Assembly: GCA_947441615.1 (NCBI GenBank)
Contig: CANEUH010000003.1
Coordinates: 62,001-126,000, forward strand
DNA from: Bacteriovoracaceae bacterium
GTDB lineage: Bacteria; Bdellovibrionota; Bacteriovoracia; Bacteriovoracales; Bacteriovoracaceae
DNA: 64,000 bases
Reading direction: 5' to 3'
In this document: positions 5,675-59,034 of the stretch, in pieces
Position numbering within the stretch: position 1 is the stretch's first letter
How the letters are laid out: each line of letters opens with the position of its first letter
Notes under the pieces: generated by a model
Databases searched by the model: none
What the model was told of the DNA's origin: nothing
Seen by the model: only the letters and a program-made list of their open reading frames with translations
Made by a program: the position numbers and the translations under genes

Positions 5675-5703
5675 TACAGTATCTTGTCCTATCAACCGAT
5701 AAG
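5675..5703 (+). promoter_or_regulatory. Candidate sigma-28-like promoter before the hexapeptide transferase gene
   Basis: TACAG (5675-5679) and CCGATAAG (5696-5703) are separated by 16 bases, and the ATG follows 6 bases later. The layout and spacing match the elements before 34135 and 57711. The -10 half is close to the FliA consensus GCCGATAA; the -35 half is weaker (one mismatch to TAAAG). Confidence 0.45.
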
Positions 5704-5709
5704 TTCTCC

Positions 5710-6483
5710 ATGAACGAAAAAGAAAAAGTTGTTATAGACGTCAACTCAACCAAATCCGAACGAGCTGGTTTTTCGGGTATCATTGAAAGTGTTCTGAGAA
5801 AATTTAGAAACTTTGGCTTCTCACTTGTTCTTGCACCGATTGCACTTCTCTATATCTTCTGCATGGGAGTTTCTCTCACACCTGGCATTACACTTATTAC
5901 ATCAGTCAATGAGTGGACGAGAGAGAGTCACTTTATTCTACGAAATGCTTTTCTCGGTTTTTCTGTCGCCTCAGCTTTTTTTGCTTACGGATTATCACTC
6001 ATTTTTGTGGTTCCTCTCGTGAATAAACTTTTGCCTCTGAAAGTGAAACCTCATAGAGCTTCTTGGTTTTCTCTAACAGTCATTCCTTGGTATTACCATA
6101 ATGCCCTTACCTATCTAGTGCGCTACACGTTCTTAGATTTCATTACTCCTACTCCACTCAATATCCTTTTTTTTAAAATGATGGGTATGAAGATTGGTAA
6201 AGGGACCATGATAAACACATCAAATATTTCTGATCCCTGTCTCATTGAGATTGGAGATTATGTGACAATTGGTGGCTCTGCTTCCCTTGTTGCTCATTAC
6301 GGTCAGAAAGGAATGCTTGTGATTGATAAACTTATCATTCACGATAAGGCCACTATTGGACTTAAGGCGAGTTTATTTGGAGACGTGGTCGTTGGTAAGG
6401 GGGTTCTTGTTAAGGCCCATGAAGTGGTAATGCCTAAAACAAGACTTACTGATGTAGTGCCCGAAGAAAAAAAGGCTGCCTAA
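5710..6483 (+). CDS. Membrane-anchored hexapeptide-repeat (left-handed beta-helix) acyltransferase-like protein
   Basis: The 257-residue protein has two hydrophobic segments (about residues 36-60 and 80-105) and then a C-terminal left-handed beta-helix region (about 150-250) with hexapeptide-type repeats: IGKGTMI, LIEIGDYVTIGGSASLV, IHDKATIGLKASLFGDVVVGKGVLV. Such domains usually transfer acyl groups from acyl-CoA. The combination resembles the C-terminal part of Pls/PosA-type proteins in polyamino-acid synthesis, but no adenylation domain is present. Substrate unknown. There is no Shine-Dalgarno sequence; a CCGATAAG box sits 6 bases before the ATG. The 3' end overlaps the convergent rmuC by 4 bases. 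Confidence 0.7.
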   Translation: MNEKEKVVIDVNSTKSERAGFSGIIESVLRKFRNFGFSLVLAPIALLYIFCMGVSLTPGITLITSVNEWTRESHFILRNAFLGFSVASAFFAYGLSLIFVVPLVNKLLPLKVKPHRASWFSLTVIPWYYHNALTYLVRYTFLDFITPTPLNILFFKMMGMKIGKGTMINTSNISDPCLIEIGDYVTIGGSASLVAHYGQKGMLVIDKLIIHDKATIGLKASLFGDVVVGKGVLVKAHEVVMPKTRLTDVVPEEKKAA

Positions 6484-34099: not shown

Positions 34100-34128
34100 T
34101 TAAGAGATGGGAACAATAATCCGATAAG
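34100..34128 (+). promoter_or_regulatory. Candidate sigma-28-like promoter of the caspase-like operon
   Basis: TTAAG (34100-34104) and CCGATAAG (34121-34128) are 16 bases apart, and the ATG follows 6 bases later without a Shine-Dalgarno sequence. The TTAAG is part of a second CTTAAG (34099-34104); another CTTAAG is at 34081-34086. Confidence 0.5.
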
Positions 34129-34134
34129 ACATCC

Positions 34135-34497
34135 ATGAAAGTCTTGTCTCTCATACTTATATTCATCTTTTCACAATCTCTTTTAGCTAAAGAGAATTGC
34201 ACCGTCTATGAATTGCAGGGCACAGTCAAAGAGGTGAATTATCGCCTCGAACTATGGGTGGCAGAGAAGACCCTCTCACAAAAGAATTTTAAAATTCCCC
34301 TTAAAATTGAACTCTCTTTTAGTCCCTACGTGGATAAATTTATTAAAGGTCAGTTTATCTTTAAAGGTGAAGATCTTCAAACAAATGAATCGATTCTATC
34401 TGTTGAGAGTATTGATCTCTCAACTCCAGACCCCCTCAATCAAAATGAGAAAAATACGATGAAAAAAATAAAAGGGATTAAATGCCCATCTATCTAA
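34135..34497 (+). CDS. Small secreted protein of unknown function
   Basis: The 120-residue protein has a signal peptide (MKVLSLILIFIFSQSLLA) and a mature part of about 100 residues with alternating hydrophobic and polar residues suggesting a small beta-sandwich (ENCTVYELQGTVKEVNYRLELWVAEKT), and Cys near both ends that may form a disulfide. I do not recognise the family. It overlaps the caspase-like gene by 16 bases, so the two are translated together. It might be a partner, chaperone or inhibitor of the peptidase; this is inference from position only. Confidence 0.6.
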   Translation: MKVLSLILIFIFSQSLLAKENCTVYELQGTVKEVNYRLELWVAEKTLSQKNFKIPLKIELSFSPYVDKFIKGQFIFKGEDLQTNESILSVESIDLSTPDPLNQNEKNTMKKIKGIKCPSI

Positions 34498-35933
34498 GTT
34501 TCATACTCTTTCTCACCTTTAGTGTTTCTGCCCAAGAATCTAGCAAAAAACATATCGCCATCATGGGTGGTGGGGGTGAACCTCAGGGTGAAACAACGAT
34601 ATTTGATTTAAGTATGAAAGAACTTGGGTCATATCTAAAAAATAAAGACCCTAGCTGGAAACCGACCGTGCATTTCAATGGAGGGCACGCCGAAACAGAA
34701 AAGATTCTCAAGGATAGTTTTGGAGAAAAAACAGATACGACCAAACCATTCACGTCCCAAAATTATTCAGAAACAATTAAAAGCTATATGAAAAAAATTG
34801 AAGAGGGAGATATTAAATCGGGCGATCAACTCCTTGTATGGCTTAATACTCATGGTGCGCAAGCCTATTCAGGGGAGAAAGGCCATATGATAAGTGCGAC
34901 GGGAAAATCTTCCAGTGATTTTACCAATCTAAGCCAAAATACCCTCGTAAGTACAAATGAATTACAAAGCCTCATCGATCTCGCTAGTGAGAAAGGAGTA
35001 AAATTAGGAATTATTGATTTTAGCTGCCACTCAGGAGCGAGTATCGCTCTTTCAAATCCCAAAACATGTATTATTAGTTCAACAGGCCCAAACCATTTTG
35101 CTTACTCCAGTTTTCCATCTGAAATCATTGATAATATGAAAAAAGGAAAATCACTTGAGGATGTATTCTTAGACTCCTTCGATTCTAGATACGATATTGC
35201 CTTCCCTATGATTTCAACTGCCCACGGGAAAAAGGTCCAAGATAAGCTCTATGATTTGGCAGGTCCCTTTCTCTTAAATTTCGACTCAAATTCTGGACTT
35301 GATAAATTAACACCCTATTTGGAAAAAAATTCTTCACCAGAAATGTGCCTTATGGAAGAAAATAATTTTAAAGAGCTCCTAAAGCTCACGCTAGATGCTG
35401 AAAAAATAACGATGAAAGTTCGACAAAGTGATGACTACAAAAATCTCAGACTCGCTTTAGGAAAATATAAAAACGTCGTTGAAGAATATCAGGAAAGCCT
35501 TTCTTCTTTGGTAAAAGACAACATTGCAAAGAAATCAACCACCATCTGTGGAACTGAAAAAAATGAAGTTCAACCTGTGCCTCTAAATTGTAAAAGATTC
35601 ACCTTCAAAGAGTTATCTATTACAGATTTTGATTCGGAAATAATCAGACTTCAAAATCTGTATGAGAAATCTTCTGGTGATGACAAAAATTATGTCGAAG
35701 GGTCACTGAAGCTCATGAAAAAAGCAAAAGAGAAATATGAAGAGATCTCTGCTCAATACCCCAGCTTAAAAAAATACAGCGAATTCATGAATAAAAATAA
35801 GAATTTCGCCGGAAGAACAAGAGGCTTGGCCCAAAAAGTTGCAGAGGAACTTAAGCCCCTTTACCTAGACATGTATAAGGACATGGCCTCAAAGGACACG
35901 TCCCCTAATCCATGCAAAGATTTTAAACTCTAG
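34482..35933 (+). CDS. Secreted clan CD (caspase/legumain-like) cysteine peptidase
   Basis: After a signal peptide (MPIYLSFILFLTFSVSA), the domain has a first hydrophobic strand KHIAIMGGGG, the catalytic His-Gly after a strand (QLLVWLNTHGA, H124), and the catalytic Cys after another strand (KLGIIDFSCHSGAS, C182). This strand-HG / strand-DxxC arrangement is the clan CD signature shared by caspases, metacaspases, gingipains and legumains. Residues about 270-483 are helical with several Cys and no known domain. Specificity cannot be read from sequence. A secreted caspase-like enzyme fits attack on another cell or processing of surface proteins. The stop overlaps the asnS stop by 4 bases. Confidence 0.75.
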   Translation: MPIYLSFILFLTFSVSAQESSKKHIAIMGGGGEPQGETTIFDLSMKELGSYLKNKDPSWKPTVHFNGGHAETEKILKDSFGEKTDTTKPFTSQNYSETIKSYMKKIEEGDIKSGDQLLVWLNTHGAQAYSGEKGHMISATGKSSSDFTNLSQNTLVSTNELQSLIDLASEKGVKLGIIDFSCHSGASIALSNPKTCIISSTGPNHFAYSSFPSEIIDNMKKGKSLEDVFLDSFDSRYDIAFPMISTAHGKKVQDKLYDLAGPFLLNFDSNSGLDKLTPYLEKNSSPEMCLMEENNFKELLKLTLDAEKITMKVRQSDDYKNLRLALGKYKNVVEEYQESLSSLVKDNIAKKSTTICGTEKNEVQPVPLNCKRFTFKELSITDFDSEIIRLQNLYEKSSGDDKNYVEGSLKLMKKAKEKYEEISAQYPSLKKYSEFMNKNKNFAGRTRGLAQKVAEELKPLYLDMYKDMASKDTSPNPCKDFKL

Positions 35934-54364: not shown

Positions 54365-55131
54365 GTTATTTCGAGGTTTGCCAAAAACTCATTGAATCTG
54401 GAGCCTCCTTCGTCGTTGTCACGCAAACAGGTGTGAGAGGATCTGCTCCTCAGGACCCAGGGGCCAAGATGGTTGTCACCAAAGAGGGACTTCATTTTGG
54501 TACGGTGGGTGGAGGAAAAATTGAGGCCCATGCGATAAAAAAATCTCTTGGAATCATTGAGAAAAATACACCCGCTCCTCCAGAATTAGTGACCTGGAAT
54601 CTTCAAAAAGATATTGGTATGTCTTGCGGCGGAGAAGCGAGTTACCTTTTTGAACATCACCATCAGAAAAGCTGGCCCATTGCGATTTTTGGTGCGGGCC
54701 ATGTGTCTCAGGCACTCACAAGACTTCTAACAAATTTAAATTGTAGCATTACCTGCATTGATCACAGAGAAGAGTGGACAGGGAAACTTGTGGGAGTGAA
54801 AAGCATCACTCACCCAGATCCCAAAACGCTTGTCTCTACTTTTTCTGAGAATACTTTTTTCATTTGTATGACAATGGGGCATGCGACAGATGTGCCGATT
54901 CTTTTTGAAATTTTTAAACACGCTCCCGATTCTCCCTATGTGGGAGTCATTGGAAGCGAAGTGAAAGGGATAAAAATTAAAAAGGAACTAAAAGATCTTG
55001 GCGCCTCTACCGAGTTTTTAGAAAAACTCAAAGTTCCCATGGGGCTACCTATTGGAAGTAATCATCCCTATGAGATTGCTATTAGTATTGCTGGGGAACT
55101 TATTCAAGTCCGAGATCAACGAAAACTCTAA
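54355..55131 (+). CDS. xdhC: XdhC family molybdenum-cofactor insertion/sulfuration factor
   Basis: The 258-residue protein has the N-terminal XdhC/CoxI block (VVVTQTGVRGSAPQDPGAKMVVT, GTVGGGKIEAHAI, GMSCGGEASYL) and a C-terminal Rossmann domain (IAIFGAGHVSQALTRLL). XdhC binds the molybdenum cofactor, protects its sulfurated form and delivers it to XdhB. The start is a GTG with GAGAGG 8 bases upstream, inside the end of xdhB (10-base overlap). The stop overlaps the convergent metalloprotease stop by 4 bases. Confidence 0.92.
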   Translation: MGISYFEVCQKLIESGASFVVVTQTGVRGSAPQDPGAKMVVTKEGLHFGTVGGGKIEAHAIKKSLGIIEKNTPAPPELVTWNLQKDIGMSCGGEASYLFEHHHQKSWPIAIFGAGHVSQALTRLLTNLNCSITCIDHREEWTGKLVGVKSITHPDPKTLVSTFSENTFFICMTMGHATDVPILFEIFKHAPDSPYVGVIGSEVKGIKIKKELKDLGASTEFLEKLKVPMGLPIGSNHPYEIAISIAGELIQVRDQRKL

Positions 55132-57224
55132 TGGAGTTCCACTTTTAGAAGGAGCTCTTCCACAAACTCTTCTGTGGCAATCCCCTTTCTTTTTTCTGGG
55201 GCCTGCTTTTCCCAAGAAGTAAGAAGTTCCATCACTTTTTCACGTTTACATTTCTTAAGAAGACACTTTTTAGTCGATTCTTGAAATTTCACCAGAACTT
55301 CTTTCTCAAAGGAAGAAACTTCGTCTCCATAAGGTTTTTTAATAAGATTATTTGGGTTTTCACCTTTAGGGACTTTAAAGCCAGCTTGTTCATAGAGACC
55401 CAGAAGATTTTCAGCACAAGCACTCGTTACATCTTTTTTATCATACCCTTCCCATAAGTCTCGTCCCAATGAGTAGGTGTTCTTAAATCCTTCTTTCCCA
55501 GAATTATATTCAAGAAGATCTTCCCCTGAGGTCAATTTATAAACCTCGATTTTTGAAATATTTTTTAAGCACGCACTAAGCCACTTACTCGTTCCAATGG
55601 CATCAAGATTATCTCCAAGGGCACTCATTCTTTTAGGTACTTTACTCACGACGAGACTCTCCACCACAGGGATCATCCCTTTAGGTACATCTACACTTTG
55701 ACCGGATTTTTTTATAATACATTCTCTCGTGTAGTCTTTTTCAGCTTCACAAGCTTTCACTGAAGAAGTGACATCCATCTTTGCCGACGCTTCAAAACGA
55801 GAAGCGATGAGAGCTTTGGATTCAGCACAAATTTTCTCTGCACCTTTTTTAATCACCGCCTGGCCACCTTTATTACAATACTCATCAGTCTGCGCCAATG
55901 TTTCTTCGATCTCCTTGGTGCGTGTGCTGATGAATTCGTTCATGCAGTGGTTCTTATTGAGTTGATCAAGAGCATTTCCCATACTGGTTAATGAAACCGA
56001 GCGACCTGGTGAAGTTGATGTGGTTGCAGCATCATTTGAAGTGAAAAAGCCGTATGAGTAACTCATATGAGTCACACATTTCTCAAGCGCAGGAAGACAC
56101 CCTTCTTGAGAAGCGAGAAGATTCGAAAGCTCTGGCCACGCCATATCTTTAGACTTCGTCCATGGTTTGTCTTTAAATTCAACTCCAGGAAAGACCTTGT
56201 TTTTCATATAGGCGTACTTACTGGGAGCGACCTTCTCGAGCTTAAGTGGATCAAGAATATAATGAGCACAGGTTTCAGCAAAATCTTCTGCTGGCTGAGT
56301 GGAAGCATAGGAGCTTACAAATTGCGCTTTATCCGAATGAGTCCAAGTAGACTCCCCGTTTTTTCCCACCTTCTCTTTCCAGCCACTAAGAGCGGAAAAA
56401 GCTGAGCCCCTCTGCTCCGTAGTCATGTCCCCTTCATTTGTGGCGTAGTAGCCCTTGTAGTCATGGTGATGACAGATCTCATGGAGGATAACTTCCTGAG
56501 GCCAGGAGGCTTGCTCATAGGCGGAGCCCTTGCTGATTGCCCCTCTTAATGCAGCATCGTACATCACGAGTTCCGCACCCTTGTATCCAGAAATAGCTGG
56601 ACTCGCGTAGGCCGCGACACCTCTACCATGGTAACTTTTTCTAAAACCATCGGCCATACGAGTGATGACTTTTAAGTGAGGAAGGGACTGTAGCCCTTTG
56701 GGCATTTTACTTGCTGCCGCACTCATTTCTCGAATTTCACGAGGAGACCAAACTTGATTGGCCTGTCCTTGGTTAATCGTTTGATCAAGACTTAAAGCGT
56801 ATCCAGATTTAGCAGCGAAATTAAAAATCTCCATCGCTGCAATTTTTGATTTTAATAATTTTTCGAAGGCACACTGAATGGTAGAGCACCCCTTAGCGGA
56901 GGCGGCCCACTCTTTGGGAGGTTTCCCTCCGAGCATGAGGTTAGCAAGTTGGAGTTCTTTCTCCGACCCCTTAAGAATGTGTCCCTTTACGTTTTTACTC
57001 ACCTGAGGTTTTGCGCCATAAAACTTTTTATATTCTTCCGTTACAAAGGCATTCACGAGTTCATCGTCCGTTGGACATTCTCGCAGTGGTGCAGATAGAC
57101 CCAAGACAGTTTGGCTTAACTTTTGAATCTCTCCGGAGGGAATACATTCGATCTGATCATCTTCTTGGGAGAAGCTTGAAAAAGAGAGAAGAAGAAACGG
57201 TAATAATAAAAAATTTTTTTTCAT
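55128..57224 (-). CDS. Large secreted metalloprotease with an M34 (lethal-factor/ATLF)-like zinc site
   Basis: The 698-residue protein has a signal peptide (MKKNFLLLPFLLLSFSSFS). Around residues 195-330 is the peptidase region: VILHEICHHHDYKGY (H248, E249, H252) and SSYASTQPAEDFAETCAHYILDP (E313 or E316 as third ligand). The S-x-YA...EDFAE arrangement is that of the ATLF/Pro-Pro endopeptidase group of M34 metallopeptidases. The C-terminal half (about 350-698) is Cys-rich, with pairs such as CAESKA, CEAEKDYTREC and CLLKKCKRE, and matches nothing I know. It is 4 bases downstream of the 160-residue gene, so they form an operon under the CCGATAAG element. Confidence 0.75.
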   Translation of the reverse strand: MKKNFLLLPFLLLSFSSFSQEDDQIECIPSGEIQKLSQTVLGLSAPLRECPTDDELVNAFVTEEYKKFYGAKPQVSKNVKGHILKGSEKELQLANLMLGGKPPKEWAASAKGCSTIQCAFEKLLKSKIAAMEIFNFAAKSGYALSLDQTINQGQANQVWSPREIREMSAAASKMPKGLQSLPHLKVITRMADGFRKSYHGRGVAAYASPAISGYKGAELVMYDAALRGAISKGSAYEQASWPQEVILHEICHHHDYKGYYATNEGDMTTEQRGSAFSALSGWKEKVGKNGESTWTHSDKAQFVSSYASTQPAEDFAETCAHYILDPLKLEKVAPSKYAYMKNKVFPGVEFKDKPWTKSKDMAWPELSNLLASQEGCLPALEKCVTHMSYSYGFFTSNDAATTSTSPGRSVSLTSMGNALDQLNKNHCMNEFISTRTKEIEETLAQTDEYCNKGGQAVIKKGAEKICAESKALIASRFEASAKMDVTSSVKACEAEKDYTRECIIKKSGQSVDVPKGMIPVVESLVVSKVPKRMSALGDNLDAIGTSKWLSACLKNISKIEVYKLTSGEDLLEYNSGKEGFKNTYSLGRDLWEGYDKKDVTSACAENLLGLYEQAGFKVPKGENPNNLIKKPYGDEVSSFEKEVLVKFQESTKKCLLKKCKREKVMELLTSWEKQAPEKRKGIATEEFVEELLLKVELH

Positions 57225-57228
57225 ATTT

Positions 57229-57711
57229 TTATTTCACACTTTTAATGACTTCAGATTCAGGAGTTTTTAAGAGGGCCTCACCAAACTGACACTCACGGTT
57301 TGCTCTTGCTCCGGGTATATCTTGGATCACAATTGATTTAATTTGACCTTTGGGGCTCAGTTCATAGCGCCTTTGTGTTTTCATATCAAAAAAGAATGTG
57401 CGGTTTATAGGGATATCAGGGGCCATGGGTTGACTTAAGCAAAAGCCTTTGGTGTCTTTACTCACAAATTCTTCCGAATTAACTGGTAACTTAAAATCAA
57501 TACGTACGGAAGTGATGAGATTCTTTTCAGTTTCTATCTCGTAGGAAGCACCCTTTAAGGAGTCACTCTCCTTAAGACCCGCAACTTTTTTCTTCGCCTC
57601 CGATAGACTCTCTCCTGGTTTTAATTTCAGAATATCACCTGTCCCTAGGACTTTGGCGGATAGAGGAAGATGCACTAAAAGTGAGGAGAGGATAAGAAGT
57701 GTTTTGATCAT
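57229..57711 (-). CDS. Secreted protein of unknown function, partner of the large metalloprotease
   Basis: The 160-residue protein has a signal peptide (MIKTLLILSSLLVHLPLSA), then a mostly polar domain whose beta-rich second half includes SVRIDFKLPV, KGFCLSQPM and ANRECQFGEALL with two Cys. No family recognised. It is the first gene of a two-gene operon, 4 bases before the large protease, so it may be a propeptide-like chaperone, inhibitor or co-secreted factor; this is inference. There is no Shine-Dalgarno sequence, and a near-consensus sigma-28-type element ends 8 bases before the ATG. Confidence 0.6.
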   Translation of the reverse strand: MIKTLLILSSLLVHLPLSAKVLGTGDILKLKPGESLSEAKKKVAGLKESDSLKGASYEIETEKNLITSVRIDFKLPVNSEEFVSKDTKGFCLSQPMAPDIPINRTFFFDMKTQRRYELSPKGQIKSIVIQDIPGARANRECQFGEALLKTPESEVIKSVK

Positions 57712-57719
57712 AGGTGAGA

Positions 57720-57748
57720 CTTATCGGCGAAAGACTTAAACTACTTTA
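57720..57748 (-). promoter_or_regulatory. Strong sigma-28 (FliA)-like promoter of the M34-like protease operon
   Basis: On the minus strand TAAAG (57748-57744), 16 bases, and CCGATAAG (57727-57720) preceded by G, which makes a full GCCGATAA match to the FliA -10. The ATG is 8 bases downstream. The -35 half overlaps the last codons of the upstream exonuclease gene. Confidence 0.65.
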
Positions 57749-59034
57749 GTCAAGTAACTACAAACAATTGAAGCAATATCTGGATCCCCCGGAACTCGGT
57801 ATGTAGACTCTTCCCCAGATCTATCTCTTATCACCATGGAGACCGGCACATGGCCCTCAATTTTAATATACCCGTGGATTTGCCCATGGGCCTTGAGAGG
57901 AATTTCAAACTCATGAGACTTTGGGATTTTTTTATAAAAGATTTTCTCTAAAAAAGAATTGAAGCCTTGGGGACCCAATTTTTTTAAGAGAAGTTCAATT
58001 TTACCCATCTTTTCAAGACTCGTTTCAAAGGGTCCCAGAAGAATTTTATAAATCGCCTCGATTCTTCTCTCCCCCACTTTTTTACTCTTCACTGCAAAGA
58101 GTGGATGAAAGGTTCCATCATTATGGGTGCAGATAATCTCAAAAATGCCATCGTGATTAACTTTAAGCTTTAAGGCATAGGGAAAGATTTTTCTTTTTAA
58201 AGAATGATTATAGCGAGGATAGTGTTTTTTTATCTCCATGCACTCAAAAACTAGCGCCGCAAGCTCATGAGGGAAAAGTGCGTAACTCATCTTCGCGATT
58301 TGATTTTTTAGTTCAATATCCTTTCTTCGTTTTAGATCCGGGTGAAAGTGCTGTGAGATTCTTTTTTTAATATCAAGACTCTTTCCAATATATAAAATAT
58401 CCCCATGACCGTTATAAAAATAATAGACTCCAATCGAATGTGGGAGGGCCTCAAACTCTTCTCGATCTAGATTAGGCGGGAGAGCAAGTTTTTTCGCGTC
58501 CGAGATGAGCTCCATTTGAGAATTCATCTTTTTTTGAATGATTTTAAATAACTCAAAAGTCGCTTTTGCGTCCCCCATCGCTCGGTGCCGGCCAGAGTTT
58601 ATGATAGCTAGATCCTTCGAGAGTTCACCCAATGAATAAGACTTGTGGCCCGGAAGATATTTTCTGGCGAGTTGAACAGTGCAAAGTTTATCGCGAGAGA
58701 AACTAAACCCTAATTCAGAGAATTCGTGCTTAATAAAATTAAAATCAAAAAACACATTGTGAGCAACAAAGATTCTATCTTTAGTCATCTCGACAATTTT
58801 TTTAGCAATTTCATAAAACTTCGGAGCGTTTTCGACGTCTTCGTTATTGATTCCAGTTAAGGTGGTGATGAAATAAGGGATTCTGATTTCGGGGTTAATG
58901 AGGGTCGTGAATTCGTCGGTGATCTCGTTGCCATCTATATTAATAATGGCAATTTCAATGATCTTCTGACCCTTTTTAAAGCTACCCGTGGTCTCAATAT
59001 CAATGAGGGAGAATTTTTGAGATAAGTCTTTCAC
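57736..59034 (-). CDS. DnaQ-like 3'-5' exonuclease fused to a GIY-YIG (UvrC/Cho-type) nuclease domain
   Basis: Residues 1-170 are a DEDDh exonuclease: SLIDIETTG (D and E), FVAHNVFFDFNFI, and HRAMGDAKATFELF (H and D). Residues about 195-290 are a GIY-YIG domain: IGVYYFYNGHGDILYIGKSLDIKKRISQHF with the conserved Arg. The last 140 residues have no clear motif. This fusion is widespread and resembles the Cho/UvrC incision module joined to a Pol III epsilon-like domain, implying a role in DNA repair. The helix-hairpin-helix and C-terminal nuclease of UvrC are absent. It is divergent from homospermidine synthase. Confidence 0.88.
   Translation of the reverse strand: MKDLSQKFSLIDIETTGSFKKGQKIIEIAIINIDGNEITDEFTTLINPEIRIPYFITTLTGINNEDVENAPKFYEIAKKIVEMTKDRIFVAHNVFFDFNFIKHEFSELGFSFSRDKLCTVQLARKYLPGHKSYSLGELSKDLAIINSGRHRAMGDAKATFELFKIIQKKMNSQMELISDAKKLALPPNLDREEFEALPHSIGVYYFYNGHGDILYIGKSLDIKKRISQHFHPDLKRRKDIELKNQIAKMSYALFPHELAALVFECMEIKKHYPRYNHSLKRKIFPYALKLKVNHDGIFEIICTHNDGTFHPLFAVKSKKVGERRIEAIYKILLGPFETSLEKMGKIELLLKKLGPQGFNSFLEKIFYKKIPKSHEFEIPLKAHGQIHGYIKIEGHVPVSMVIRDRSGEESTYRVPGDPDIASIVCSYLTKVV

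Follow-up and report, generated by a model that had tools for sequence, protein, structure and literature searches.

Putative sigma-28 promoters directly before start codons, and predicted near-leaderless messages, in Bacteriovoracaceae

In a 64-kb stretch of a Bacteriovoracaceae genome (the window, which here means the whole 64,000 nucleotides analysed), a pattern search of both strands finds exactly three copies of the two-box element T[AT][AC]AG-N16-CCGATAAG, each shortly before an ATG. Judged by their sequence these elements are near certain to be sigma-28 (FliA) promoters, and each very probably starts transcription at the ATG or about 1-4 nt before it. The resulting messages are likely to be near-leaderless; the initial annotation gave the short distance to the ATG and expected 5' ends in that place, but did not draw this consequence.

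The three elements and the genes behind them

The putative promoters and the genes that follow them are these:

57720..57748, minus strand: sigma-28-type promoter, -35 box TAAAG (57744-57748), N16, -10 box CCGATAAG (57720-57727)
57229..57711, minus strand: small secreted protein, 160 aa, signal-peptide-like N-terminus by eye; operon gene 1
55128..57224, minus strand: secreted zinc metallopeptidase of M90/Mx type, 698 aa (P0005); operon gene 2
34100..34128, plus strand: sigma-28-type promoter, -35 box TTAAG (34100-34104), N16, -10 box CCGATAAG (34121-34128)
34135..34497, plus strand: small secreted protein, 120 aa, signal-peptide-like N-terminus by eye
34482..35933, plus strand: secreted caspase-like protein, 483 aa, overlapping the 3' end of 34135-34497
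5675..5703, plus strand: sigma-28-type promoter, -35 box TACAG (5675-5679), N16, -10 box CCGATAAG (5696-5703)
5710..6483, plus strand: membrane protein, 257 aa

The spacing of the boxes is N16 in all three, and the ATG lies 6 nt after CCGATAAG at 5710, 6 nt at 34135 and 8 nt at 57711, or 8, 8 and 10 nt when counted from CCGATA. The window contains only three CCGATAAG octamers, each of them part of a two-box element, and dinucleotide shuffles of the window give a mean of 0.02 copies of the whole pattern, a flattering figure in that the pattern was derived from those same three sites. No Shine-Dalgarno sequence is seen by eye before any of the three genes, and the element at 57720-57748 overlaps the final 13 bases of the upstream exonuclease gene (57736-59034).

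The initial annotation had taken two of the three loci to be operons for secreted peptidases. This holds for 57711, where P0005 exceeds the Pfam cut-offs for both Peptidase_Mx (30 bits; cut-off 27) and Peptidase_M90 (27.8 bits; cut-off 26.2), and is plausible for 34135, where the second product is caspase-like; its match to Peptidase_C14 (13.7 bits, E 0.049) falls below the cut-off of 21.4. Three of 12 members of the caspase-like family match Pfam C14 at E values up to 0.1 (best 1.2e-5), and residues H124 and C182 are invariant across the 12 aligned members. A structure predicted for this protein from its single sequence was unusable (mean pLDDT 37.7), and a PDB profile search returned 15 matches to helical proteins at E 0.045 or worse. 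The small protein of the 34135 operon could be an inhibitor or a chaperone. The 5710 product is a membrane protein and no peptidase; it matches a left-handed beta-helix model weakly (18.4 bits, cut-off 54).

The small protein encoded at 57229-57711 has no Pfam match, and P0005 has no close relative in 58 other genomes of the family (best 29% identity). Within the same genome, contig 22 encodes a paralogue of P0005 (51% over residues 26-390), which follows a gene resembling, by eye, the small protein of 57711 and carries the variant CCGATG 8 nt before the ATG at its locus. Contig 7 has a third relative, with a weaker match (E 4e-6), about 1.1 kb downstream of another sigma-28-type promoter, TAAAG-N15-CCGATA, and behind a small lipoprotein-like gene. 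The three metallopeptidase loci (55128-57711, L153 and L042) each place the peptidase behind a small secreted-protein gene and a sigma-28-like box, these boxes being exact, a CCGATG variant and exact with N15.

Known promoters and the presumed sigma factor

Bacteriovoracaceae and Bdellovibrio belong to separate classes. In B. bacteriovorus, the flagellar sigma factor drives attack-phase genes, among them genes for surface proteins and proteases (PMC3627812), and TTAAG-N16-CCGATA occurs in 92 of 140 mapped attack-phase promoters (Karunker et al. 2013, PMC3627812). The window elements share with these promoters an identical -10 box and the N16 spacing, together with the presence of a FliA gene, and differ from the TTAAG box at no position at 34100, at one at 57720 and at two at 5675. 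In E. coli, promoters of flagellin and TAD genes taken from two species of Bdellovibrio are reported to be transcribed by FliA, and the promoter sequences of other predators' TAD genes suggest FliA control too (PMC5430801).

In E. coli the FliA consensus is TAAAGTTT-n11-GCCGATAA (PMC2859248), which has the same -35 and -10 core as the window elements but a spacing of N15 in the notation used here, one base under N16; the -35 boxes of the window are also variable (TACAG, TTAAG, TAAAG), unlike that consensus. The longer spacing makes the elements less like the E. coli form and leaves their likeness to the Bdellovibrio form unaffected. At the E. coli aer promoter, the sigma-28 start site is 6 bp beyond the -10 octamer (PMC2859248), that is, 6-7 nt after CCGATA, and from this offset, which we assumed to apply to the Bacteriovoracaceae organism, the leaders in the window would be about 1-4 nt long. 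FliA-RNA polymerase would bind T[AT][AC]AG and, 16 nt further on, CCGATAAG; the mRNA would begin at about the ATG and lack a Shine-Dalgarno sequence, and the message would be translated as leaderless or near-leaderless. The analogy with Bdellovibrio would have the genes switched on in the free-swimming attack phase; their attack-phase expression is likely, and the operons may, as the initial annotation suggested, encode weapons of that phase.

A promoter placed so close to its start codon has precedents. Streptomyces coelicolor whiH, with a sigma-WhiG -10 box GCCGACAA, is documented as leaderless (Zheng et al. 2011, PMC3160421) and is a sigma-28-family precedent for leaderless genes. The leaderless genes of that survey have the -10 box near the start codon, as in the window, but its signal is the sigma-70 TANNNT box, whereas the box here is of sigma-28 type and recurs before many genes of many genomes. 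Bdellovibrio is not mentioned in the main text of the survey. In Deinococcus-Thermus, a -10 region adjoining the reading frame gives leaderless mRNA as a phylum-wide mode (PMC12340547), a similar arrangement in another phylum. The main text of PMC3627812 makes no mention of leaderless, untranslated, Shine-Dalgarno or start codon, and the literature searched, available in part, yielded neither a report of leaderless genes in Bdellovibrio or Bacteriovorax nor a promoter map for Bacteriovoracaceae. Within that literature, the kind of element is known, and its scale and predator setting seem to be new.

The genome has a FliA gene that scores 271.9 bits against TIGR02479 (curated cut-off 189.6), and residues 3-223 of the 223-residue core of its product can be aligned with the solved FliA 6pmi, which we take to be that of E. 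coli. The two share the stretch RIRGA-LDELRS-DWVPRSVR, presumably region 2.4, and the gene is preceded by one for a MinD-like ATPase, which we take to be FlhG/FleN. Among the best 80 loci, the FliA core is 93-100% identical to 23 named ones, of which 17 are labelled Bacteriovorax stolpii or Bacteriovoracaceae and six Proteobacteria, Halobacteriovorax, Bdellovibrionales or Bdellovibrio sp.; on this evidence we assign the window to the Bacteriovoracaceae, which are related to Bdellovibrio yet distinct from it. The initial annotation had read the elements as close to a FliA promoter, and this reading is well supported by the fit to the Bdellovibrio attack-phase consensus, by the FliA gene above its cut-off and by the conservation of the element across homologues and genomes described below.

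A second FliA-like factor on contig 25 (L037:1468-2205, minus strand, 245 aa from GTG) might read these promoters instead of FliA. It matches TIGR02479 at 177.7 bits, under the 189.6 cut-off, and we saw no flagellar neighbours in the piece of contig read; the adjoining gene encodes what is, by its looks, presumably a secreted glycoside hydrolase. We consider a complete replacement of FliA by this factor unlikely, given that the motif is the classical FliA one and that the paralogue departs, by eye, from the stretch that the first FliA and the solved FliA have in common, but it could share or take over the promoters.

The exact element is absent from the 400 nt upstream of all six flagellin-type genes (L304-L309: five flagellins and one weaker match that we take to be FlgL-like), several of which have AAGGAG-like sites before the ATG. 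As a positive control the flagellins are weak. Looser matches lie upstream of L304 and L308 (by script), and TTAAG-N15-CCGATC is seen by eye at L305; a MotA/ExbB-family gene carries TTAAG-N15-CCGATA.

Distribution of the element and distance to the ATG

The initial annotation had described the element, with N16 and an ATG 6-8 nt downstream, at the three loci; the description is exact in the window, and across the whole 3.26-Mb genome T[AT][AC]AG-N16-CCGATAAG has five matches, against none for the reversed pattern. At the two matches outside the window, the ATG of a long reading frame lies 18 and 21 nt after CCGATAAG. The octamer alone occurs 94 times (control 34), and the looser TWAAN{16,17}CCGATA 65 times (control 25). 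When T[AT][AC]AG is sought at the 94 octamer sites, its frequency peaks at N16 with five cases, against zero to two at any other spacing between 8 and 29.

By a rough classifier, 32 of the 94 octamers have a likely ATG start within the next 45 nt, 32 are intragenic and 30 are elsewhere. The expectation that the motif would be commoner upstream of genes than inside them thus fails for the octamer alone and stands for the two-box sites, all five of which are upstream. For the 32 upstream octamers the distance to the first likely ATG is 5-9 nt in nine cases and at least 15 nt in 21, with one case each at 0 and 4 nt and no case at 10-14 nt. Separate leaderless and Shine-Dalgarno modes would give such a gap at 10-14 nt, the numbers being small. 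The 21 sites with the distant ATG often have a Shine-Dalgarno sequence, and from their number leaderless placement is no rule of sigma-28 promoters. A strict test in the same genome gave three sites with the ATG at 7-9 nt (control 1) and one at 13-15 nt (control 0).

Across 96 genomes of the family, TWAAGN{15,16}CCGATAN{4,33}ATG has 1468 matches (640+828), compared with 147 (78+69) for the reversed pattern, and exceeds its control in 94 of the 96. Among the 150 matches listed, from nine genomes, the offset of the ATG after CCGATA peaks at 7, 8 and 9 nt (12, 13 and 12 matches), with 1 to 8 matches at each other offset, and the spacing is N16 in 103 and N15 in 47. The same position stands out over 144 genomes of the phylum, with 463 sites at 7-9 nt (control 24; 123 genomes with a match) versus 136 at 13-15 nt (control 24; 79 genomes). 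In the 102 genomes from other families the two counts are 291 (control 14) and 78 (control 19). The near-leaderless position of the ATG is favoured across the phylum overall; the excess at 7-9 nt is missing in some families (f7, 0 versus 1; f12, 1 versus 1).

These counts also bear on whether the elements are chance matches of an AT-rich pattern. The pattern was chosen post hoc and CCGATAAG is intragenic as often as stated above, but chance would have to account for the five matches against none in the genome, the tenfold family-wide disparity and the persistence of the element over distant homologues, and we regard it as a highly improbable explanation of the whole. Single sites could be inactive despite the overall excess.

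For other candidate targets, 39 proteins were hand-picked from the sigma-28-type sites of the genome and scanned against Pfam at E 0.001, and 27 of them had no match at that threshold. Named candidates include MotA/ExbB, an M48 peptidase, a PilZ-GAF sigma-54 activator, an HU-type protein, an RHS-repeat protein and a CEMIP/G8 protein. In a comparison based on a hand-picked list of 42, from which L242 (no reading frame) and L243 and L251 (mis-set starts) were dropped, a hydrophobic N-terminus peak of at least 2.2 was found in 10 of 10 near-leaderless candidates outside the window versus 19 of 29 with leaders; a link of hydrophobic N-termini to near-leaderless candidates is suggestive only.

A general leaderless habit was rejected as the sole explanation, as Shine-Dalgarno sites are the main signal at 152 likely starts of the genome. 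In four of these 152 starts TA[TCG]AAT is placed at exactly 6 nt, with zero or one case at every other distance up to 29, and sigma-70 leaderless genes seem to exist here as a minority. In the 96 genomes, a consensus sigma-70 pattern gave 43 matches, 18 of them with the ATG at 5-8 nt, and was discarded as promoter evidence against a hand-summed reversed control of about 94; raw-sequence counts of ATG around TATAAT were swamped by coding sequence. At 276 starts from relatives, a redundant set of little weight that includes some loci picked for these operons, the sigma-70 signal is absent (TANAAT once at 6 nt and three times at 2 nt) and CCGAWA lies at 7-10 nt in 12.

Homologous loci and exchange of promoter class

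A search of 26 genomes of the genus for homologues of the caspase-like protein was positive in 11 and gave 13 loci, counting our own. The 11 aligned relatives comprise one that is 85% identical and ten at 31-36%. With distances partly measured by eye, CCGATA lies 8-12 nt before the start codon at nine of the 13 loci (L266, L267, L268, L270, L271, L273, L276, L277 and L278), the start being ATG in eight and GTG in L276, and an alignment of nine chosen loci of the 13 shows no variation in CCGA or in the TG of the start codon. At L272 the box reads CCGAAG and lies at 8 nt; at L269 a GTG follows CCGATA after about 28 nt, which makes a longer leader, and L275 has no such box upstream; L274, where the contig begins inside the gene, was not scored. 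L278 has no match to the small protein by tblastn and has GGAG beside its ATG. The small secreted and caspase-like genes occur together at 11 of the 13 loci (tblastn, our own included), with the small gene downstream in L274.

For gene 5710, we compared 13 orthologues with usable upstream DNA, leaving out 12 fragments or distant proteins. CCGATA or CCGAAA stands at 8 nt in three of them (our own, L280 and L281), TATAAT, TATGAT, TACAAT or TAAAAT at exactly 6 nt in nine, and L284 has neither class of box. A single change, in either direction on a tree rooted by midpoint only, parts the two box classes (branch support 94/92). The pattern suggests that the promoter class may have been exchanged in this family while the position of the box beside the start codon was kept. 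L282, L283, L285-L290 and L300 appear to be sigma-70 leaderless genes in the genus.

It might still be that the elements are sigma-28 promoters with an ordinary leader, transcription starting elsewhere or the true start codon lying further downstream behind a Shine-Dalgarno sequence. The start codons are predictions, and many sigma-28-type promoters of the genome do have leaders with AGGAG-like sites, but the signal-peptide-like N-termini at 57711 and 34135 begin, by eye, at the named ATGs, and the box keeps its distance of 8-12 nt over most of the 34135 family, with CCGAAG of L272 as a tenth case. In addition, 11 of the 13 orthologues of 5710 have no GGAG, AGGA or GAGG in the 18 nt before the ATG; in the other two the sole such motif is a GAGG, 2 nt (L289) and 0 nt (L290) ahead of the ATG and too near to act. 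We therefore hold an ordinary leader to be improbable and prefer a transcript that begins at or just before the ATG.

A wider reading, which we offer tentatively and with slightly less confidence than an even chance would imply, is that throughout the Bdellovibrionota FliA may drive a large leaderless set of genes, many of them for secreted or membrane proteins, beside a Shine-Dalgarno set, and that genes may join or leave it by exchange of CCGATA and TATAAT at a fixed place. If true, leaderless translation would give attack-phase cells, which are not growing, a second level of control. The elements would extend the attack-phase promoter type of Bdellovibrio to the Bacteriovoracaceae and would represent a sigma-28 regulon with many leaderless mRNAs, of a kind overlooked by surveys built on sigma-70 boxes. 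The exchange at 5710 may be a natural case of a change of promoter class at a fixed position, and the spacing of box and ATG may provide a simple sequence rule by which to predict, for uncultured predators, which genes belong to the attack phase and where their start codons lie.
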